Assembly (NCBI RefSeq): GCF_019890615.1
Contig: NZ_JAINVZ010000007.1
Location: 186,001-250,000 of the forward strand
DNA length: 64,000 nucleotides
Origin: Streptantibioticus parmotrematis
GTDB lineage: Bacteria; Actinomycetota; Actinomycetes; Streptomycetales; Streptomycetaceae
Reading direction: 5' to 3'
Part shown: one piece after another, positions 12,373-27,800 of the stretch
Layout of the letters: each line of letters begins with the position of its first letter
How positions within the stretch are numbered: the stretch's first letter is position 1
Position numbers and translations under genes: made by a program
The notes under the pieces: model-generated
Database searches by the model: none
The model's input: the letters and a program-made list of their open reading frames with translations, nothing else
Told to the model about the DNA's origin: nothing

Positions 12373-13767
12373 TCAGGCCGCCCGGCGTACGCGCCTGCGG
12401 TGGGCGGCGATGATCTCCGCGTAGCGCCGGCCGCTGCCCTTGACCGTGCGCGCCTGCGTCGCGTAGTCCACGTGCACCAGACCGAAGCGCTTGTCGTAGC
12501 CGTACGCCCACTCGAAGTTGTCCAGCAGCGACCACGCGAAGTAGCCGTCCAGCGGCACCCCCTTGCGCACCGCCCGCGCGCACGCCGCCACATGGGCGTC
12601 GAGGTACGCCGCGCGTTCGGGGTCGGCGACCTGGCCCTCGGGCCCCACGGTGTCCGGGTAGGCCGATCCGTTCTCGGTGATCAGGATGCGCCGGGCGCCG
12701 TACTCCCGGGTCATCCGCAGCAGCATCCGCTCCAGGCCGTCCGGCCTGACCTCCCAGTCCATCCCGGTGCGCGGCACACCGGGCAGGTAGACCTGGCGGG
12801 CGCGCGGCGGCGGGCCGGTGGGATCGTCGGCGACGACGTGGCGGAAGTAGTAGTTGAGGCCCAGCCAGTCCAGCGGCGCCGCGATCGCCTCCAAATCGCC
12901 TGCCTGGATGGGGAGTTCGACGCCGTAGAGGTCGACCATGTCCTGCGGGTAGCCCCGGCCGTGCAGCGGGTCCAGCCACCAGCGGTTGGTGTGGCCGTCC
13001 GCGCGCACCGCCGCGGCGCGGTCCGCCTCGCGGTCGGTCGCCGGTTCGCACGGGCTGAGGTTGTTGACGATGCCGATCCGCGCGCCCGGCACCTCGGCGC
13101 GCAGCGCGGCGACCGCCCTCGCGTGCCCGAGGTGCAGGTGGTATGAGGCGCGCACGGCCGCGGTGACGTCGCGCAGGCCCGGTGCCATCCGGCCTTCCAG
13201 GTGGCCGATCCACGCCGAGCACAGCGGCTCGTTGAGCGTCGCCCACTCCCGCACCCGGTCGCCCAGCGCCCGGCCCACCACGCTCGCGTACTCACCGAGG
13301 TGCTCGGCGGTCTCCCGGTGCGGCCAGCCGCCGCGATCCTGGAGGGCCTGCGGCAGGTCCCAGTGGTAGAGCGTGGCGTACGGCGTGATGCCCGCTTCCA
13401 GCAGCCCGTCCACCAAGCGGTCGTAGAAGTCGAGCCCGGCCCGGTTGACGGCGCCGGTGCCCTGGGGCAGGACGCGGGGCCAGGCGATGGAGAAACGGTA
13501 GGCGGTGATGCCCAGTTCCTTGAGCAACGCGATGTCCTGCGGCCAGCGGTGGTAGTGGTCGCAGGCGACGTCACCGGTGTCGCCGCGGTCGATCGCCCCC
13601 GGCACCCGGCAGAAGGTGTCCCAGATGGACGGCGCCCGGCCGTCCTCGTCGTGCGCGCCCTCGATCTGGTACGCGGAGGTGGCGGCGCCCCACTGGAACC
13701 CGGCGGGGAAGGCGGTCAGGTCGTCCAAGCCGTAGCCGTACTCGTCTGTCGCAACTGCCTTTGTCAC
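12373..13767 (-). CDS. GH1 beta-glucosidase
   Basis: A 464-aa cytoplasmic family 1 glycoside hydrolase of standard length. The family signature '[19 protein letters not shown]' is at 20-38, the acid/base Glu180 lies in TLNEP and the nucleophile Glu365 in ITENG. '[16 protein letters not shown]' near 415-430 completes the aglycone side. It hydrolyses cellobiose or other beta-glucosides after import. It is the last gene of the operon, 79 nt past the second permease, and there is no signal peptide, which fits intracellular hydrolysis. Confidence 0.95.
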
Positions 13768-13846
13768 AACTGCCTTTCCTTGAGGGGTTGTCGGGGACGG
13801 GTCGCCGGGTGGCCCACGCCGTCGGTGACGCGGGCGCGCGGGCCGG

Positions 13847-14812
13847 TCACTTCACCGCCCCGGCCGTCAGCCCCGCCACGAGGTAGCGCTGGAGCAGCAG
13901 GAACCCGGCGACCACGGGGACGCTCACCACGAGGGAGGCGGCCATCACCTGGTTCCAGTAGACGTCGTTCTGCGTGGCATAACCCTCCAGACCCACCGCG
14001 AGGGTGCGGGTGGTGTCGTTGGTCATCACCGAGGCGAACAGCACCTCGCCCCACGCGGTCATGAACGCGTACACGCCGACTGCCACGATGCCCGGCACCG
14101 CCGCCGGGATCACCACGCGGAACAGCGCGCCCAGCGGCCCGCACCCATCGGTGAGCGCGGCCTCGTCCAGGTCGCGGGGGATGGAGTCGAAGTACCCGGC
14201 GAGCATCCAGATGGAGAACGGCAGCGAGAACGTGAGATACGTGAGGATCAGCCCGCCCCTGCTGCCGTACAGGGCGATGCCGGTGGCATTGCCGATGTTG
14301 ACGTAGAGCAGGAACAGCGGCAGCAGGAAGAGGATGCCGGGGAACATCTGCGTGGACAGCACCGTGATGGTGAACAGACGCCGGCCGCGGAACCGGTAGC
14401 GGCTGACCGCGTACGCGGCGAAGATCGCCACCGCCACCGAGCAGAGCATCGAACTGCCGCTCACGAGGAGGGAGTTGACGAAGTAGCGGGCGAGCGGAAC
14501 GGTGTGCCAGATGTCCACGTAGGGGCGCAGGGTGAGCGCGTGCGGTATCCAGTCGAAGCGGCCCTGCACCTCGCCCAGCGACTTCAGCGAGGAACTGAGC
14601 ATCACGTAGACCGGCACCAGCGCGAACGCGGTGAGCGCGGTGAGCACCACCCGGCGCGTCCAGACGAAGGCACGCGGCGCCGCCATGGGCGACCTCGGCC
14701 GGGCGGACCTCGACGACCTCGCCCGCCCGGCCCGCTCCTCGCCGGATCTCGTCCGCCCGGCCCGCGACGAATTCGGCGGGCCGCTCATCGGCGGCCTGGA
14801 AACCTCAGCCAT
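13847..14812 (-). CDS. Sugar ABC transporter permease (MalG/CebG type)
   Basis: A 321-aa inner-membrane protein with about six transmembrane helices after a basic, disordered N-terminus (about 1-45, rich in Arg/Ser/Pro). The cytoplasmic coupling motif '[20 protein letters not shown]' is the EAA loop that contacts the ATPase. Its start overlaps the upstream permease by 8 nt. No ATPase gene is in the operon; as with other Streptomyces CUT1 importers, a shared MsiK-type ATPase encoded elsewhere is expected. Confidence 0.92.
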
Positions 14813-15785
14813 CGGTGTCCCTCCCGCGCGTCGCGACCAGGTAGCCCGCCGTCACCAGCAGCAGGAACAGCAGCAGCAGGACGGACATCGCCGAGCCCGA
14901 GCCGAAGTTCCAGTTGACGAACGACGACTGGTAGATGTGGATGGAGACCAGGTCGGCGGCGGGCGGCGCGGAGCCGCCGAACAACACGTACGGCGTGTTG
15001 AAGTCGTTGAACGTCCACAGGAACAGCACGAGCACCAGCACCTGGTTGACCGGGCGCAGCGACGGCAGTGTGATGCGGCGGACGCGCTGCCAGATCCCGG
15101 CGCCGTCCATCGCCGCCGCCTCGTACAGCTCACGTGGGATGTTCTGCAGCCCTGCGGTCAGGCACAGGAACGCGAACGGCCAGTTGCGCCACACCGACAC
15201 CGTCAGCAGCGCGACGAAGCTGTGCGGGCCGATCAGCCAGAACGGCCGGCCGGACGTCAGGTGCAGCTGGTCGTGGAGCACGTGGTTCACCAGGCCGTTG
15301 TCCTGCTGGAACATGAACGCCCAGGTGATCACGGCGGCGTACACCGGCAGCGCGTACGGTACGAGGAACACCCCGCGCAGCAGTCCGCGCCCGCGGAACG
15401 GGTCCTGGGTCAGGACCGCCGCCGCCGTGCCCAGCAGCCACGACAATCCCACCGACAGTACGGTGAACGCGCACGTCACCCAGAACGAGTGCAGCAGCGC
15501 CGAGCCGATCGCGGCGTGGAAGTCCACCGCCACGCGGTAGTTGCCCAGGCCCGTCCAGGGCGCCGAGCCCCAGTCGCGGATGAAGAACTGGGTGAGCTGC
15601 TTGAAGCTCATCACGACCCCGACCACCATCGGGATCAGGTGCACCAGCAGTTCCAGCACCAGCGCGGGCACCAGCAGCAGGTACGGCAGCGCGCCGCGCC
15701 GGGGCCGCAGCCGGGAGCGCAGGGTGCCGCGCGGGGGCCGGTCCGCCGTGCCGCCGGGCGGACGCCTCTCCAGGATCGCCGTCAT
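14805..15785 (-). CDS. Sugar ABC transporter permease (MalF/CebF type)
   Basis: A 326-aa inner-membrane permease with about six helices; a basic leader of about 30 residues (RPPGGTADRPPRGTLRSR) precedes the first helix (LPYLLLVPALVLELLVHLIP). The EAA coupling loop is 'YEAAAMDGAGIWQRVRRITL'. It forms the heterodimeric channel with the 13847-14812 product and receives substrate from the lipoprotein encoded just upstream (15-nt gap). Confidence 0.92.
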   Translation of the reverse strand: MTAILERRPPGGTADRPPRGTLRSRLRPRRGALPYLLLVPALVLELLVHLIPMVVGVVMSFKQLTQFFIRDWGSAPWTGLGNYRVAVDFHAAIGSALLHSFWVTCAFTVLSVGLSWLLGTAAAVLTQDPFRGRGLLRGVFLVPYALPVYAAVITWAFMFQQDNGLVNHVLHDQLHLTSGRPFWLIGPHSFVALLTVSVWRNWPFAFLCLTAGLQNIPRELYEAAAMDGAGIWQRVRRITLPSLRPVNQVLVLVLFLWTFNDFNTPYVLFGGSAPPAADLVSIHIYQSSFVNWNFGSGSAMSVLLLLFLLLVTAGYLVATRGRDTDG

Positions 15786-15800
15786 CGACTTGACGCCCTG

Positions 15801-17126
15801 TCAGCTCTGCGGCATCTGCTGCTGGGCCTTGGCCAGTTCGGCCTTCACCGTGGCGTCGGTGACCGGTTTGCCCGCCGCGGCGTCCGCGAACAGGTCCTTC
15901 ATCGCGGTGCCCACCAGCGTCTCGAACTGGCTCTCGTTCGGCACCTGCGGCATCGGAGCGGCGGAGTTCGCGAGAACCTGACGGAGCGTCTGCTGCTCGG
16001 GGGCGGAGAACGCGGCGTCGCTCTGCGCGGCGGTCACCGGAGGCACCGAGCCGTAGGCCGAGTTGAGGATCTGCTGCTCGGGCACGCTCGTCATGAAGTT
16101 CACGAACTTCAGCGCGCCGGAGCGGTTGTGGGTGTTGGCGAAGACCGCCATGTTGATGCCGGCCACCATCGAGTCGGTCTTCGCCGTGCCCGTGGGATTC
16201 GCGGTCTGGAACGGCACGGGGGCCACGCCGTAGGCGGACGCGTCCATGCCGTGCGCCTTCAGCGAACTGCCCGCCGCCTGCCACAGCAGCATGGCGGCCT
16301 TGCCGGTGGCGAAGTCCGTCACCGACTGGTTGGCGGAGTACTCGGCGTCGCCGGGGGCCACGATGTGGTCGGCGGCCATGAAGTCGATGTACTGCTTGAC
16401 CGCGGCGACCGCCTGCGGCGTGGTGAACTGCGGCTTGCCGGAGGAGTCGAAGAAGTCCGCGCCGTGCTGCTCGCCGAGGACGAAGGCGTGGTGGGCGTTC
16501 TCCGCGAGGCTGGAGCCCTCCTCGGCCAGGCCGTAATGGCCGTCGCCGGTGAGCTTCTTCCCGTCGGCCACCAGTTGGTCCCAGGTGGTGGGCGGCGCGG
16601 AGATGCCCGCCTGCTGGAAAAGCTTCTTGTTGTAGTAGAGCGCGTACGACAGGGAGTAGAGCGGGACCGCCGCCGGGTCCTTGCCCGCGGCGCCGGTCGC
16701 GGCCAGCGCGGACGCGGTGAACTTGTCCTTGCCGCCGACCGCCGCGAAGTTGCTCGCGTTGAACGGCAGCAGCGCGCCGGTGGCCTGGAGCGAGGCCGAC
16801 CAGGTGTTGCCGATGTTGAGCACGTCGGGGCCCTGGCCGGAGGAGGTGGCCGCGAGGATCCGGTTGAGCAGGTCGGACCAGGGGATGACCTCCAGCTTGA
16901 CCTTGATGCCGGTCTGCTTCGTGAACTTGGCCAGCTCGGGCCCGAGCACCTTCTGGTCGACGCCGATGTTGGCGCCCTGGTTGCTCGCCCAGTACGTGAG
17001 CGTCTTCGGGCTGGAGTCGTCACCGCCGCCCGTGGTGTTGCCGCCTCCGCAGGCGGTGGCGGTCGCGGCGAGGGCGAGGACGGCTGCGGTGGCGCTGAGC
17101 GTGCGGGAGGCCTTGAGGATCGGCAC
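15801..17126 (-). CDS. Sugar-binding lipoprotein of ABC importer (CUT1)
   Basis: A 441-aa extracytoplasmic solute-binding protein. A signal peptide with a lipobox ending at Cys26 (ATATACGGG) is followed by a Gly/Ser-rich spacer. The mature part has the family pattern of MalE-like proteins (LTYWASNQG, 'IKVKLEVIPWSDLLNRI', 'GKAAMLLWQAAGS'). It is the first gene of the minus-strand operon, transcribed from the promoter region shared with the ROK regulator. The sugar is inferred to be a beta-glucoside from the GH1 partner. Confidence 0.93.
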   Translation of the reverse strand: MPILKASRTLSATAAVLALAATATACGGGNTTGGGDDSSPKTLTYWASNQGANIGVDQKVLGPELAKFTKQTGIKVKLEVIPWSDLLNRILAATSSGQGPDVLNIGNTWSASLQATGALLPFNASNFAAVGGKDKFTASALAATGAAGKDPAAVPLYSLSYALYYNKKLFQQAGISAPPTTWDQLVADGKKLTGDGHYGLAEEGSSLAENAHHAFVLGEQHGADFFDSSGKPQFTTPQAVAAVKQYIDFMAADHIVAPGDAEYSANQSVTDFATGKAAMLLWQAAGSSLKAHGMDASAYGVAPVPFQTANPTGTAKTDSMVAGINMAVFANTHNRSGALKFVNFMTSVPEQQILNSAYGSVPPVTAAQSDAAFSAPEQQTLRQVLANSAAPMPQVPNESQFETLVGTAMKDLFADAAAGKPVTDATVKAELAKAQQQMPQS

Positions 17127-17246: not shown

Positions 17247-17323
17247 AACCCGGCGTCAAGACTTCGCGCACCGATAGGTTTCCGTCCAGGACAGGCCCCT
17301 TGGCGGGCGCGGAGGGGAGCGGC

Positions 17324-18604
17324 ATGGCGGACAACCAGCGAACGGTGCGCGACCTGCGCCGCGCCAACCGAGCGGCGCTGCTGCGCCACCTGTGGTTCGA
17401 AGGCCCGCTCAGCCGCCAGGAGTTGGCACGCGACACCGGACTGAGCGCCGGGTCCATCAGCAACGTGGTGGGCGAACTCCTCGCCGACGGGCTGGTGGAG
17501 GAGGCCGGCGCGGTCGGCTCGGACGGCGGCCGCCCGCGCATCCTGCTGCGCGTCGCCGCCGACCCGGCCCGGGTGATCGGCGTGGACATCGGCGAGACCC
17601 GGGTGCGCGTCGAGCTGTTCGACCTGCTCATGGGCGAACTCGCGGTCACCGCACCCGCGTTGTCCGACAGCGGCCACGACGTGGGCCACGTCGTGCGGCT
17701 CGTCCTCGACGGCATCGCCACGGTGCTGGCCGAGACCGGCACCGACCCCTCCCGGGTGCTCGGGGTCGGCATCGGCGTGCCCGGCGTCGTCGAGCAGGGC
17801 GCCTCACCCGACGACGCGGTGGTGCACGGCCAGACCATCGGCTGGGACGCCGTGCCCCTGGCCCGCCTGCTGCGCGCCGGGACCGACCTTCCGCTGCACG
17901 TCGACAACGGCGCCAAGACGCTGGGCCAGGCGGAGATGTGGTTCGGCGCCGGACGCGGCGTGCGCAACGCGGTCATCGCGCTGATCGGCTCGGGCGTCGG
18001 CGCCTGCGTCGTCACCGACGGACGCCCGTACCGGGGTGCGACCTCCAGCGCGGGGGAGTGGGGACACACCACGATGCGGGTCGGCGGGGCGCGCTGCCGG
18101 TGCGGCGCGCCGGGGTGCCTGGAGGCGTACGTGGGCGCGGAGGCCATCGTCAGGCGCTGGGGCGGCGCGCCCGCGCACGCCTCCGAGGAGACCGCCCTCG
18201 CCGCGCTGCTGGAACGCGCCGACGACGACCCGGCCGCCCGCGCGGTGCTGGACGAGACGGCCGAGTACCTCGGCGCGGGCATCGCCGACCTCGTCAACCT
18301 CTTCAACCCCGAACGCATCGTGCTGGGCGGCTGGGCGGGCCTGATGCTCGGCCCGCGCCTGCTGTCCCGGGTGCGCGAGCACGCCGCCGCCTACGCGCTG
18401 AGGCAGCCCGGCGAACGGGTCGCGATCACCCTGGGGCGGCTCGGCGCCGAGGCGGTCACCGTGGGCGCGGCGACGTTGCCGCTGGCGCGCTTCCTGGACG
18501 ACGGGGGAAGCGCCGACCGGGCGCCGTCCACGGGAACCGACGCGGTGGTGCCGGGCGTTCAGACGGACAGGGAGGCACGCGCCCTGGCGCGCCGCGCCCG
18601 TTGA
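17324..18604 (+). CDS. ROK-family transcriptional repressor of the beta-glucoside operon
   Basis: A 426-aa protein. ATG 17324 is chosen for its GGAGGGG ribosome site at 17311; an in-frame ATG at 17300 lacks one. An N-terminal winged HTH (LRRANRAALLRHLWFEGPLS, 'ELARDTGLSAGSISNVVGEL') precedes the ROK sugar-kinase-like domain (VIGVDIGETRVRVELFD). The ROK zinc motif 'CRCGAPGCLEAY' is intact. Divergent orientation relative to the binding protein gene and the shared operator-like repeat suggest that it represses both and is released by the imported sugar or its phosphate. Confidence 0.9.
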   Translation: MADNQRTVRDLRRANRAALLRHLWFEGPLSRQELARDTGLSAGSISNVVGELLADGLVEEAGAVGSDGGRPRILLRVAADPARVIGVDIGETRVRVELFDLLMGELAVTAPALSDSGHDVGHVVRLVLDGIATVLAETGTDPSRVLGVGIGVPGVVEQGASPDDAVVHGQTIGWDAVPLARLLRAGTDLPLHVDNGAKTLGQAEMWFGAGRGVRNAVIALIGSGVGACVVTDGRPYRGATSSAGEWGHTTMRVGGARCRCGAPGCLEAYVGAEAIVRRWGGAPAHASEETALAALLERADDDPAARAVLDETAEYLGAGIADLVNLFNPERIVLGGWAGLMLGPRLLSRVREHAAAYALRQPGERVAITLGRLGAEAVTVGAATLPLARFLDDGGSADRAPSTGTDAVVPGVQTDREARALARRAR

Positions 18605-18665: not shown

Positions 18666-19481
18666 GTGACACTCCAGCAGCAGATCGTGGGCAACGCCAT
18701 GCAGATGGCGGTCTGTAGTCTGCAACCGGGCCAGACCGTGTACTGCGAGGCGGGGAAGTTCCTGTTCAAGACCTCCAACGTGACGATGGAGACCCGTCTT
18801 TCCGGCCCGGGCGCCCAGCGCGACGGCGGCGCGGGAGGCGGCGGCGGGGGCATGGGCGGTCTGCTGCGGCAGGCGATGGGCACCGCGATGCAGGTCGGCC
18901 AGCGGGTCCTGGCGGGCGAGTCGCTGGCGTTCCAGTACTTCACCTCGACCGGCGGCGAGGGCACGGTCGGCTTCGCGGGCGTGCTGCCCGGCGAGATGCG
19001 CGCCCTGGAACTGGACGGTACGCACGCCTGGTTCGCGGAGAAGGACGCGTTCGTGGCCGCCGAGTCCACGGTCGAGTTCGGCATCGCCTTCGCGGGCGCC
19101 CGGCAGGGCATGAGCGGCGGCGAGGGCTTCGTCCTGGAGAAGTTCACCGGCCGGGGCACGGTGATCATCGCGGGCGCGGGCAACTTCATCGACCTCAACC
19201 CGGCGGAGTTCGGCGGCCGCATCGAGGTCGACACCGGTTGCATCGTCGCGTTCGAGGAAGGCGTACGGTACGGGGTGCAGCGCATCGGCGGCCTCAACCG
19301 CCAGGGCATCATGAACGCGGTCTTCGGCGGCGAGGGCCTGTCGCTGGCCACGCTGGAGGGTGACGGCCGGGTGATCCTCCAGTCGATGACGCTGGAGGGC
19401 CTCGCCAACGCGCTGAAGAAGGCGGAGGGCGGCGACAAGCAGGGCCCGACCGGCGGCCTGTTCTCCACCAACGTCGGCTGA
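18666..19481 (+). CDS. AIM24/TIGR00266-family protein
   Basis: A 271-aa protein with GTG start behind GAGGAG. It has the beta-rich AIM24 fold sequence (MQMAVCSLQPGQTVYCEAG, 'GGEGTVGFAGVLPGEMRALEL', 'TGRGTVIIAGAGNFIDLN') interrupted by a Gly-rich loop (about 54-63). There is no signal peptide. The family is widespread, of unknown biochemical function, and named for a mitochondrial biogenesis protein. It stands alone between the sugar and inositol regions. Confidence 0.88.
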   Translation: MTLQQQIVGNAMQMAVCSLQPGQTVYCEAGKFLFKTSNVTMETRLSGPGAQRDGGAGGGGGGMGGLLRQAMGTAMQVGQRVLAGESLAFQYFTSTGGEGTVGFAGVLPGEMRALELDGTHAWFAEKDAFVAAESTVEFGIAFAGARQGMSGGEGFVLEKFTGRGTVIIAGAGNFIDLNPAEFGGRIEVDTGCIVAFEEGVRYGVQRIGGLNRQGIMNAVFGGEGLSLATLEGDGRVILQSMTLEGLANALKKAEGGDKQGPTGGLFSTNVG

Positions 19482-19642: not shown

Positions 19643-20266
19643 GTGTACCGCTGGGAGATCACCCGGGCCGCGCTGGCGCAGCGGATCGTGGCCGTGGTCC
19701 GCGCGGACAGCTACGACGAGGCGGCGGCCACCGCCGACACCTTGCTGTCGGCGGGCCTGACCACCCTGGAGATATCCCTCACCACGCCCTTCGCCCTGGA
19801 AGTCGTCACCACCATGGCCCGTGAGGTGGGCGACGACGCGGTGATCGGCGCGGGCACGGTGCTGGACGCGGCGTCGGCGCGGATGGCCATCGACGCCGGG
19901 GCGCGCTACCTCGCCGCACCCCACCTGGACGCCGAGACCGTCGCCACCGCGCACCGCTACGGCGTCCCGGTCTTCCCCGGCGCCGCCACGGCGGGCGAGA
20001 TCGTGCGCGCGCTGGAACTCGGGGCGGACGCCATCGCCGTCTTCCCGGCGTCCGCCGTCACCCCCGACTGGCTGCGCGACGTCAGGGCCGCCCTGCCGCA
20101 GGCGCCGCTCATCCCCACCTGCGGGGTCACCGACCGGACCGCCCCGCAGTGGCTCGCGGCCGGCGCGGTCGCCTGCGCCATGGGGGCCGAACTCACCGAC
20201 GGCGACCGCGACACCGTGCTCAAGCGCGTCGCCGATCTGTTGACGCGGCTGCCCGAAGCCGTCTGA
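19643..20266 (+). CDS. KDPG/KHG aldolase-like protein lacking the Schiff-base lysine
   Basis: A 207-aa TIM-barrel protein of the Eda family, with GTG start. The conserved Glu is present (E43 in TLEISL), as are 'VIGAGTVLD' and the phosphate-binding end 'GAVACAMGAEL'. The family motif with the catalytic Lys (usually xKxFPA) reads 'DAIAVFPAS', with Ala132 where Lys is expected, and the PTGG loop reads PTCG. Classical class I aldolase chemistry would therefore be lost, or another lysine must substitute. Its position beside iolG suggests a role in sugar-acid or inositol metabolism, but this is inference. Confidence 0.8.
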   Translation: MYRWEITRAALAQRIVAVVRADSYDEAAATADTLLSAGLTTLEISLTTPFALEVVTTMAREVGDDAVIGAGTVLDAASARMAIDAGARYLAAPHLDAETVATAHRYGVPVFPGAATAGEIVRALELGADAIAVFPASAVTPDWLRDVRAALPQAPLIPTCGVTDRTAPQWLAAGAVACAMGAELTDGDRDTVLKRVADLLTRLPEAV

Positions 20267-20359: not shown

Positions 20360-21367
20360 TCAGACGTGTTCGGCGATCTCCGCCACCTGTACCGGGCGGT
20401 GCTCACGACGCGAGACCTCGCACGCCTCCGCCACCAGGAGGGCCTTCAGCGCTTCGCCGCCCTCGCAGGGGTTGCCGGTCGCGCCCTTCACCACGTCCAC
20501 GAACGTGCGCAGTTCGGCCCGGTACGCCGGTGCGAAGCGCTCCAGGAAACCGCCCCACGGGTGCGCGGGGGCGGGCGCGCCGTCCGGCTCGGTCGAGGTC
20601 AGCGGCGTGCGGGCGTCCACGCCCACCGCCAACTGGTCGTCCTCGCCCGCCAGTTCCATGCGTACGTCGTAGCCCGCGCCGTTGTAGCGCGTCGCCGTGG
20701 CGGTCGCGAGCGTGCCGTCGTCCAGGGTCAGCAGCGCGGCCGCGGTGTCCACGTCGCCCGACGCCGCGAAGAAGTCCGCGCCGCCGTTGGAGCCGGTCGC
20801 GTAGACCTCCGCGACCTCGCGTCCGGTGACCCAGCGCAGGATGTCGAAGTCGTGGATCAGGCAGTCCCGGTACAGCCCGCCGGACAGCGGCACGTACGCG
20901 GCCGGGGGCGGCTCGGGGTCGGAGGTGATCGCGCGCACGGTGTGCAGGCGGCCCAGCTTGCCCGCCCGCACCGCCTCGCGCGCCGCGCGGTAGCCCGCGT
21001 CGAAACGGCGCTGGAAGCCGATCTGCAACACGCTGCCCGCCGCCTCGACCTCGCGCAGCGCGGCCACCGTGCCGGGCAGGTCGGTGGCGATGGGCTTCTC
21101 GCAGAACGCGGGCAGCCCGGCGCGGGCGGCCCGCCCGATCAGCTCGGCGTGCGCGGCCGTGGCCGAGGTGATGACCACCGCGTCCACGCCCGCGCCGAAG
21201 ACGGCGTCCACGGAGCCCGCGTCGACGGCGCCCAGGCTCGCCGCGAGGTCCGCGGAGCGGGCCGGGTCGGCGTCGGCGACCAGCAGTTCCGCGACATCCT
21301 CGTGGTCCCGCAACGCCTTGGCGTGAAAGGCGCCGATCCGGCCTGCGCCGACAAGTCCGATGCGCAT
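20360..21367 (-). CDS. iolG: Inositol 2-dehydrogenase
   Basis: A 335-aa Gfo/Idh/MocA oxidoreductase; ATG 21367 begins exactly at the Rossmann fold (MRIGLVGAGRIGAFHAKAL). The EKP motif (K91) and the catalytic block 'CLIHDFDILRW' (H172, D173, D175) are intact. It oxidises myo-inositol to scyllo-inosose with NAD, the first step of the pathway. It lies downstream of iolE with a 152-nt gap that contains direct repeats of TGACGGGTTC, so it may have its own promoter. Confidence 0.92.
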   Translation of the reverse strand: MRIGLVGAGRIGAFHAKALRDHEDVAELLVADADPARSADLAASLGAVDAGSVDAVFGAGVDAVVITSATAAHAELIGRAARAGLPAFCEKPIATDLPGTVAALREVEAAGSVLQIGFQRRFDAGYRAAREAVRAGKLGRLHTVRAITSDPEPPPAAYVPLSGGLYRDCLIHDFDILRWVTGREVAEVYATGSNGGADFFAASGDVDTAAALLTLDDGTLATATATRYNGAGYDVRMELAGEDDQLAVGVDARTPLTSTEPDGAPAPAHPWGGFLERFAPAYRAELRTFVDVVKGATGNPCEGGEALKALLVAEACEVSRREHRPVQVAEIAEHV

Positions 21368-21519
21368 GTGCTCGCTGTCCTCTCTGGTGACGGTCTGTGC
21401 TGACGGGTTCCCGTGTGACGGGTTCGTTTGACGACTTTTCAGGTATCGGTTGCGTACGACGGGTCTTCGGGTGACGGACTTGCACGGCAGCGGTGCGTGC
21501 CCCGGGGCGCCCGGAACGG

Positions 21520-25813: not shown

Positions 25814-26839
25814 ATGACGCAGCCGTACGACCTGATCACCATGGGACGGATCGGGGTGGACATCTATCCCCTCCAGACCGGGGTACCGCTGGCCGAGGTC
25901 GAGACGTTCGGGAAGTTCCTCGGCGGGTCGGCCACCAACGTCGCCGTCGCCGCCGCCCGCCTCGGCCGCCGCACCGCGGTGATCAGCCGCACCGGACGCG
26001 ATCCGTTCGGCGACTACCTGCACCGGGCGCTGGCGGACTTCCGGGTGGACGACCGCTGGGTGACCGCCGTCGACGGCCTGCCGACCCCCGTCACCTTCTG
26101 CGAGATCTTCCCACCGGACGACTTCCCGCTCTACTTCTACCGCCTCCCCAAGGCCCCCGACCTGGAGATCCACGCCGACGACCTCGACCTCGCCGCCGTC
26201 GCCGCCGCCCGCGTCTTCTGGATGACCGGCACCGGCCTGTGCGCCGAACCCAGCCGCACCGCCACCCTGACGGCGTTGCGCGCCAGAAGCGCGGCCGCGA
26301 GCAGCGAAGAGGCCCGGGGTGCGGGTGCCGGGAGCGCGACAGCGGGCAGCGAGGGGACCGGCGCCGCCGGGCCCGCCGTGACCGTCTTCGACCTCGACTG
26401 GCGGCCGATGTTCTGGAAGGACCCCGACGAGGCCCGCCCGCACTACGCGGAGGCCCTGCGGCACGCCACCGTGGCCGTCGGCAACCTCGACGAGTGCGAG
26501 ATCGCCACCGGCGTACGCGAACCCCAGGCCTGCGCCGAGGCGTTGCTGACCGCGGGCGTGCGACTCGCCGTCGTCAAGCAGGGCCCCAAGGGCGTGCTGG
26601 CGCTGCGCGCGAACGGTGAACGCGCCGAGGTCGCGCCGTTCGCGGTCGACGTCGTCAACGGCCTCGGTGCGGGCGACGCGTTCGGCGGGGCGCTCTGCCA
26701 CGGCCTGCTCGCCGGCTGGGACCTGGAACGCACCACGCGGTACGCCAACGCCGCGGGCGCCATCGTCGCCTCCCGGCTCGCGTGTTCCTCGGCGATGCCC
26801 AAGGACGCGGAGGTGGCCGCCCTGCTCGCGGGCGGCTGA
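25814..26839 (+). CDS. iolC: 5-dehydro-2-deoxygluconokinase
   Basis: A 341-aa PfkB-family kinase. ATG 25814 is chosen because of GAGGAG at 25801; the in-frame ATG at 25715 has a non-homologous leader. 'DLITMGRIGVDIYPLQ' at 6-21, 'FLGGSATNVAVAAARLG' and the anion hole with catalytic D288 in 'NGLGAGDAFGGAL' are all present. An Ala/Gly/Ser-rich insert (about 160-185) is unusual. It phosphorylates 5-dehydro-2-deoxy-D-gluconate in inositol breakdown and heads the plus-strand operon. Confidence 0.92.
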   Translation: MTQPYDLITMGRIGVDIYPLQTGVPLAEVETFGKFLGGSATNVAVAAARLGRRTAVISRTGRDPFGDYLHRALADFRVDDRWVTAVDGLPTPVTFCEIFPPDDFPLYFYRLPKAPDLEIHADDLDLAAVAAARVFWMTGTGLCAEPSRTATLTALRARSAAASSEEARGAGAGSATAGSEGTGAAGPAVTVFDLDWRPMFWKDPDEARPHYAEALRHATVAVGNLDECEIATGVREPQACAEALLTAGVRLAVVKQGPKGVLALRANGERAEVAPFAVDVVNGLGAGDAFGGALCHGLLAGWDLERTTRYANAAGAIVASRLACSSAMPKDAEVAALLAGG

Positions 26840-26921
26840 CCCGGCCCCGCCCGTCTTCCGCAACGACGTCGCGGGTGCCGCGTTCCCGGCGCCCGCGATC
26901 CCGCCCGAAAAGAGAGCCCCC

Positions 26922-27800
26922 TTGCCCCTCAGCATCAGCGACCTCACCACGGTCCGCGCCCGGCATCCCGAGGCCGTCGCGGAAGCCGCCGCCCGCCGCG
27001 CCCGCCGCCCCCTGATCGGGGAGAGCGGACGCCTGATGATCGTCGCCGCCGACCATCCGGCGCGCGGCGCGCTCGCGGTGGGGGACCGCGCCCTCGCCAT
27101 GGCCAACCGCTTCGACCTGCTGGAGCGGCTGTGCGTCGCGCTGTCGAGACCGGGCGTGGACGGCGTGCTGGGCACCGCGGACGTCCTGGAGGATCTGCTG
27201 CTGCTCGGCGCCCTGGAGGGCAAGGTCGTCATGGGCTCGATGAACCGCGGCGGCCTGGCGGGCGCCGCCTTCGAACTGGACGACCGCTTCACCGGGCACC
27301 GGGCGCGCGACCTCGCCCGGATGCGCTTCGACGCGGGCAAGCTGCTGCTGCGCGTGGACTACGGAGACCCCGGATCGCTGACCACGCTGGAGACCGCGGC
27401 CCGGGCGGTCGACGCGATGGCGAAGCGACGGCTGCCGGTCTTCGTCGAGCCGTTCATCTCCCGCCGCACCGGCGGCCGGGTCGGCAACGACCTGAGCGCC
27501 GAGGCCGTCACCCGTTCCCTCGCCATAGCGTCGGGACTCGGCGGCACCTCCGCGTACACCTGGCTGAAGGTGCCGGTCACCGAGGACGTGGACGACATGG
27601 CCGCCGTGCTGGAGACCTCCACACTGCCCGTCGTGCTGCTCGGCGGGGAGGTCGGCGGCGACCAGGAGGGCGCGTACGAGAAGTGGCGCAAGGCGCTGCG
27701 GCTGCCGACCGTCCAGGGCATGGTCGTCGGCCGCTCGCTGCTCTACCCGGCGCACGGCACGGTCGCCCAGGCCGTCGACACCGCCGTGGGACTGCTGTGA
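26922..27800 (+). CDS. Class I aldolase-like (Cgl0159-type) inositol protein
   Basis: A 292-aa TIM-barrel protein. TTG 26922 (MPLSISDLTTVRARHPEAV) is the preferred start although the upstream purine tract GAAAAGAGAG is only a modest ribosome site; the first ATG lies at 27036, inside the conserved LMIVAADHPARGAL segment. The motifs 'VVMGSMNRGGLAGAAFELDD' and AYTWLKVPV place a Lys on a late strand, as in DeoC/LacD-type Schiff-base aldolases. In actinomycete inositol clusters this family stands where IolJ would, so cleavage of the 6-phosphate to triose phosphate and malonate semialdehyde is the inferred role. Confidence 0.8.
   Translation: MPLSISDLTTVRARHPEAVAEAAARRARRPLIGESGRLMIVAADHPARGALAVGDRALAMANRFDLLERLCVALSRPGVDGVLGTADVLEDLLLLGALEGKVVMGSMNRGGLAGAAFELDDRFTGHRARDLARMRFDAGKLLLRVDYGDPGSLTTLETAARAVDAMAKRRLPVFVEPFISRRTGGRVGNDLSAEAVTRSLAIASGLGGTSAYTWLKVPVTEDVDDMAAVLETSTLPVVLLGGEVGGDQEGAYEKWRKALRLPTVQGMVVGRSLLYPAHGTVAQAVDTAVGLL

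Follow-up and report, generated by a model that had tools for sequence, protein, structure and literature searches.

In the KDPG aldolase of Escherichia coli, Glu45, Arg49, Thr73, Pro94 and Phe135 are described as recognition residues and Lys133 as the catalytic residue (PMC5334617); PMC4915726 assigns Glu45 to the proton shuttle and gives measurements of V20 and T161 relative to the active lysine. The KDPGal aldolase of the same species (2v81, 2v82) is described as having Val at the T161-type site (PMC4915726), and in the engineered K133Q/T161K variant of the KDPG aldolase (1fwr) the natural lysine has been removed and a lysine placed at 161. For Streptomyces coelicolor, PMC7494193 describes no complete Entner-Doudoroff pathway despite three putative KDPG-aldolase genes.

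The gene analysed here lies in a 64,000-nucleotide stretch of DNA from Streptantibioticus parmotrematis (hereafter the window; Table 1), and its translated product contains GADAIAVFPASAV. Family membership is supported by a PF01081 match of 122.8 bits (cut-off 27.8) and a TIGR01182 eda match of 157.2 bits (cut-off 156.05), and the AlphaFold2 model (alignment of 63 sequences; pLDDT 95.9) has the TIM-barrel fold, with a Z of about 31 to TM0066 of Thermotoga maritima. With regard to the class I features, the proton-shuttling glutamate (E. coli Glu45) is present as Glu43, whereas the imine-forming lysine of the sixth strand is replaced by Ala132, which the model places on strand 131-133. TM0066 is the best natural-enzyme match by sequence and, tied with the Tannerella forsythia structure 8di1 (Z 30.6), also by structure (1vlw_A: Z 30.9, 1.5 Å over 205 residues; 1wa3_A: Z 30.8; 30% identity). 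The two proteins have in common the whole-length fold, the Glu, GAGT, Pro93 and the FP motifs, but TM0066-type chains have Lys, SP and Gly at 160 where the window protein has Ala132, AP and Cys160. The same fold is found in 1fwr (Z 27.7) and in the E. coli KDPGal aldolase (Z 28.1), which, unlike the window protein, is described as a class I pyruvate aldolase that works through a lysine (PMC4915726). The best five phmmer alignments are all to designed nanoparticle or fusion chains with a KDPG-aldolase domain, and each has Lys opposite Ala132. These results bear out the preliminary description, according to which the catalytic lysine is missing, with Ala132 in its place, and Glu43 and the barrel motifs remain. 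With regard to the regulator role that was raised there as another possibility, Pfam and NCBIfam profile searches gave no match to a DNA-binding domain in the window protein.

Table 1. Location of the lysine-less gene, its discussed residues and neighbouring genes in the window.
Feature	Position	Strand	Remarks
ROK-family regulator	17300..18604	+	PF00480, 180.6 bits; upstream of the AIM24 gene, same strand
AIM24-family protein	18666..19481	+	PF01987, 181.4 bits; upstream neighbour, same strand
KDPG/KHG-aldolase homologue without lysine	19643..20266	+	207 aa, GTG start; PF01081, TIGR01182 and model
Arg20	19700..19702	+	retained in 38/38 lysine-less members
Glu43, proton-shuttle glutamate position	19769..19771	+	retained in 117/118 group members
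Thr72	19856..19858	+	retained in 37/38 lysine-less members
Ala132 (GCC), Schiff-base lysine position	20036..20038	+	strand 131-133; inside interval 20029-20070
Cys160	20120..20122	+	among 118, in window and sister proteins only; Gly in 90/90 outside proteins
Lys194, sole lysine of the window protein	20222..20224	+	C-terminal helix 189-206
IolG-like dehydrogenase	20360..21430	-	TIGR04380, 305.1 bits, under the cut-off of 355; convergent neighbour
Cgl0159-like protein, candidate iol-cluster aldolase	27027..27800	+	PF22649, 397 bits, residues 138-391 of ORF 26616-27800; position covers the matched part and the C-terminus, start not fixed

A sequencing or assembly error can be set aside as having a negligible probability. 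The protein of the sister genome (Streptomyces sp. ICBB 8177) is 94% identical and also without the lysine, having Gly (GGC) at 132, and it shares with the window protein Ala117 and Cys160, which are rare elsewhere, so an error is unlikely; moreover, the 38 distinct lysine-less proteins described below come from many assemblies, and these independent genomes already refute it. Cys160 sits in the GG loop, where two Met132 relatives (L088 and L090) have Ala.

Two sets of orthologues were compared. The first, the best 80 of 94 related stretches with one genome per GTDB species, had at residue 132 Lys in 63, Thr in 12, Met in two and Gly, Asn and Arg in one each. The second consisted of 70 orthologues (identity of at least 58%, the next matches being at most 46%) from a sample of 394 genomes belonging to the same family as the window, taken to be the Streptomycetaceae from the named sister; it included window and sister and was split between 34 proteins with Lys and 36 without (Thr 26, Met 3, Arg 3, and Ala, Gly, Gln and Asn one each). 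After both sets were merged and near-identical proteins collapsed, 118 distinct proteins were obtained, 80 with Lys and 38 without (Thr 26, Met 4, Arg 3, Asn 2, Ala, Gly and Gln). Two disrupted-looking orthologues, L063 (Arg at 132, rearranged near residues 155-170) and L067 (lysine-bearing, with a frame change), were left out of the trees. On the 118-protein tree, from which columns 132 and 159 were omitted, at least nine changes between Lys and non-Lys are needed, five of them forced by well-supported branches, and the residue in column 132 changes 13 times; a quick tree of 79 rows from the first set alone needs five Lys/non-Lys changes. The losses are likewise scattered on a careful tree of the first set, which had unsettled bootstrap values and contained one distant, badly trimmed paralogue on a branch of length 10 (absent from the later trees).

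Outside the orthologous group the site was Lys in 90 of the 90 PF01081 proteins examined, so Ala132 is not a matter of chance. This outside set comprised 55 of 65 phylum-wide places (the window itself, fragments and low-scoring matches being excluded) and 35 of 38 family paralogues (E 1e-30), aligned with a profile made from the orthologous group itself. Ten columns are at least 97% fixed in it; within the group the lysine column changes 13 times and the remaining nine change zero to two times. Judged from the outside set, lysine is the ancestral state, and the distribution on the trees shows that it was lost several times within one orthologous group, a recurrence that could not be seen from the single sequence behind the preliminary description. 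One lysine-less member (L113) has Gln43 as well as Gln132, so that both catalytic residues are changed in an otherwise intact frame; a premature stop (TAG) suspected there was rejected, since the protein is slightly shorter and ends at that codon.

The main rival explanation is relaxed constraint, in which the aldolase would be dispensable given a second, lysine-bearing Eda and the window copy would be drifting towards loss. The genome does contain such a protein (L001, G000:C7:111013-111594; PF01081, 36% identical), which keeps its Lys (EDMKFFPAE) and scores 232.1 bits to TIGR01182. Between window and sister the gene has a dN/dS of 0.29, a value based on no more than 12 amino-acid differences; in a comparison of ten neighbouring genes that included it, the others stayed lower (0.012-0.252). 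This, together with Ala in one and Gly in the other at 132, is also compatible with relaxed constraint, and Ala117 and Cys160 have changed as well. The maximum-likelihood omega (GY+F3X4 in IQ-TREE; values without error bars) of the window group of six (A, G, M, K, M and N at 132) was 0.074, exceeding the 0.061 of a mixed group of five (four Lys, one Met), the 0.054, 0.044 and 0.049 of three lysine-bearing clades and the 0.041 of a lysine-less clade of 25 members (T/Y clade, see below); L154 and L086 were excluded from two of the lysine-bearing clades and Thr-bearing L056 from the third. The disrupted look of lysine-less L063 could be read in the same direction, and lysine-bearing L067 has it too. 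However, 0.074 is still strong constraint, the window and sister frames are intact, and the T/Y clade is about as constrained as the lysine-bearing clades. Its pairwise NG86 median (only pairs with dS between 0.08 and 0.8) was 0.183, not below two of the three lysine-bearing clades (0.196, 0.153 and 0.158). Given the similar omega and pairwise values, the lysine-less members are about as constrained as the lysine-bearing ones; purifying selection still acts on them, and they are not simply decaying. Nor does redundancy track the loss: a canonical Eda (E <=1e-75) was present in 59 of 70 genomes, and a close one was missing from 7 of 36 genomes with a lysine-less orthologue against 4 of 34 with a lysine-bearing one, for which reason canonical Eda was rejected as a simple cause. 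On balance we consider relaxed constraint unlikely.

The co-occurrence with canonical Eda in 59 of 70 genomes would also suit a pseudo-subunit that regulates or stabilises the canonical enzyme, either by entering trimers together with it or by sensing its ligand, and the nearest structures belong to an enzyme that we take to be trimeric. This is improbable given that the paralogues are only about 36% identical and that 7 of 36 lysine-less genomes have no close canonical Eda.

The pocket around the missing lysine is largely kept. By our own alignment, E. coli Glu45, Thr73, Pro94, Phe135, V20 and T161 correspond to positions 43, 72, 93, 134, 18 and 159, with Thr72 as the putative equivalent of Thr73. 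Besides Arg20 and Thr72, the 38 lysine-less proteins retain Glu43 and Pro93 (37 each) and Glu119 and Gly161 (38 each); E. coli Arg49 is without a counterpart, the group having Thr47, as do 45 of the 90 outside proteins. Another lysine occupying the site, which the preliminary description had named as part of what would speak against it, is absent from the predicted structure, where the only lysine of the window protein is on the C-terminal helix. A search of all 38 lysine-less members found none with a lysine relocated into the site; Lys194 is present in 37 of them, with further lysines at scattered positions, and none has Lys at 159, the site matched to the lysine placed at 161 in 1fwr. A relocated lysine was therefore rejected as a substitute, only Lys194 being common among these proteins. 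Aldolase activity might persist through class II-like metal assistance or through residual catalysis of a non-covalent kind, which would fit with the retention of most pocket residues besides the lysine, but this is highly improbable, as no lysine is relocated and neither His nor Asp occurs among the nine T/Y-specific columns. Loss of Thr159 was considered as a mark of dead catalysis: 64 proteins have both Lys132 and Thr159, 32 have neither, 16 have only Lys132 and six only Thr159. It was dropped because the association is gone in phylogenetically independent pairs (118-protein set) and the KDPGal aldolase has Val there; the site is variable in the orthologous group too.

All 25 members of the T/Y clade have Thr18, Thr132 and Tyr134. 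The 80 lysine-bearing members mostly have Ile or Val at 18, with Lys at 132 and Phe at 134, and in the outside set Phe134 is found in 90 of 90 and Ile, Val or Leu in all 89 with a residue at position 18. Since three pocket positions gain hydroxyls together, the comparison suggests a site that was rebuilt rather than eroded. Where a name is available, the members are Actinacidiphila or, for some strains, carry a Streptomyces label, and the rebuilt site speaks for a new function in Actinacidiphila and its close relatives; the site is less settled in the two-species lineage of the window, with Ala or Gly at 132 and Cys160.

An AIM24 gene lies upstream of 28 of 38 lysine-less genes, including 23 of 25 T/Y-clade loci, against 5 of 79 lysine-bearing ones, and the order of malE-type transporter genes, ROK, AIM24 and the aldolase-like gene is found in the window and its sister, at most T/Y loci and in a small number of other Streptomyces. 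The AIM24 proteins of window and sister are 99.6% identical, and with a dN/dS of 0.012 their gene is under the tightest constraint of the ten. In the window, 12373-17126 (minus strand), divergent to the ROK gene, carries a GH1 glycosidase gene and three genes for a sugar-type ABC transporter, the type of which was judged from sequence, looking like a putative oligosaccharide-uptake locus. A gene for an AroA-type EPSP synthase (L043:6803-8038, plus strand, 414 bits to TIGR01356; also L033 and others) lies downstream on the same strand at 16 of the 22 T/Y loci whose flank is long enough, as one does for three Lys and one Met orthologues; the only match in the window genome is 39% identical and on another contig.

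A PfkB kinase gene lies upstream of 36 of 79 lysine-bearing genes (one further Lys row, with less than 1 kb upstream, is omitted) against 1 of 38 lysine-less genes, and the best NCBIfam matches of these kinases are KDG/KDGal kinases, under their cut-offs. In the window, the 2.6 kb preceding the aldolase-like gene contain no kinase-like gene on its strand; a 41% identical kinase is on another contig of that genome, as is its best Edd-family match, which is under the cut-off. The window gene thus has neither the adjacent KDG kinase nor the adjacent Edd that would mark an Entner-Doudoroff or hexuronate aldolase by context. The counts fit with a kinase-aldolase pairing that was lost before or with the lysine. 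The kinase is also absent from 43 of 79 lysine-bearing members, and no test of the kinase-lysine association on phylogenetically independent pairs (n=5) was significant, so that kinase absence, strong as the raw count is, was rejected as the cause of lysine loss.

The inositol pathway of T. maritima reportedly ends in a KDPG aldolase, and downstream of the aldolase-like gene the window has a nearly complete classical iol set, with IolC-, IolB- and IolD-type genes above and IolG- and IolE-type genes below the NCBIfam cut-offs. The proposal that the lysine-less protein is linked to these adjacent genes found little support. The gene converges with iolG, which is on the opposite strand; the cluster has its own candidate aldolase in the Cgl0159-like protein, a putative iol aldolase; and among members with sufficient flanking sequence, inositol-type genes occur within 7 kb downstream in 28 of 52 that bear the lysine and 5 of 15 that lack it, and therefore do not track lysine loss. 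The tie to the iol genes is weak, and we found no reason to place the lysine-less protein in that pathway. Work on the T. maritima pathway (Rodionova 2013) is cited in PMC12632266.

Without the lysine no imine can form, so class I aldol cleavage is ruled out chemically, and because no lysine has been relocated while the protein is conserved, a function other than Schiff-base cleavage is likely, in keeping with the new activity that the preliminary description had put forward. Our data show that the lysine was lost, making class I aldolase activity impossible, and suggest that the protein has probably been kept for another, non-covalent role, in which Glu43 would transfer protons or the pocket would bind a ligand; we take these two options together to be the probable outcome. 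The pocket would still bind a keto acid or a 2-keto-3-deoxy sugar acid, with no covalent imine being formed; Glu43 might then transfer protons in tautomerase, epimerase or lyase-like chemistry, or the protein might be a ligand-binding pseudoenzyme. Loss of the lysine may have become possible once the gene had no KDG-kinase-like partner. More tentatively, and as a possibility to which we give less than even weight, these proteins might form a repeatedly evolved, lysine-free enzyme class in the KDPG-aldolase fold, with glutamate-driven non-covalent keto-acid chemistry and a pocket lined by hydroxyls (Thr18, Thr132 and Tyr134) that is fixed in Actinacidiphila and its near relatives.

The fold and the family are known; a natural loss of the lysine that recurs under constraint did not turn up in the open-access literature, where titles and abstract openings gave no natural lysine-less KDPG-aldolase homologue, which does not prove absence. 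Annotation may label such proteins bifunctional KHG/KDPG aldolases despite the missing mechanism-essential residue; the T/Y member L033 scores 154.4 bits to TIGR01182, just under the cut-off. A residue that is universal in 90 outside proteins has been lost repeatedly in one orthologous group with constraint kept. The group is thereby a natural experiment in a class I aldolase turning into something else, and side-by-side comparison is possible between its orthologues with and without the lysine, which share about 70-78% identity with the window protein.
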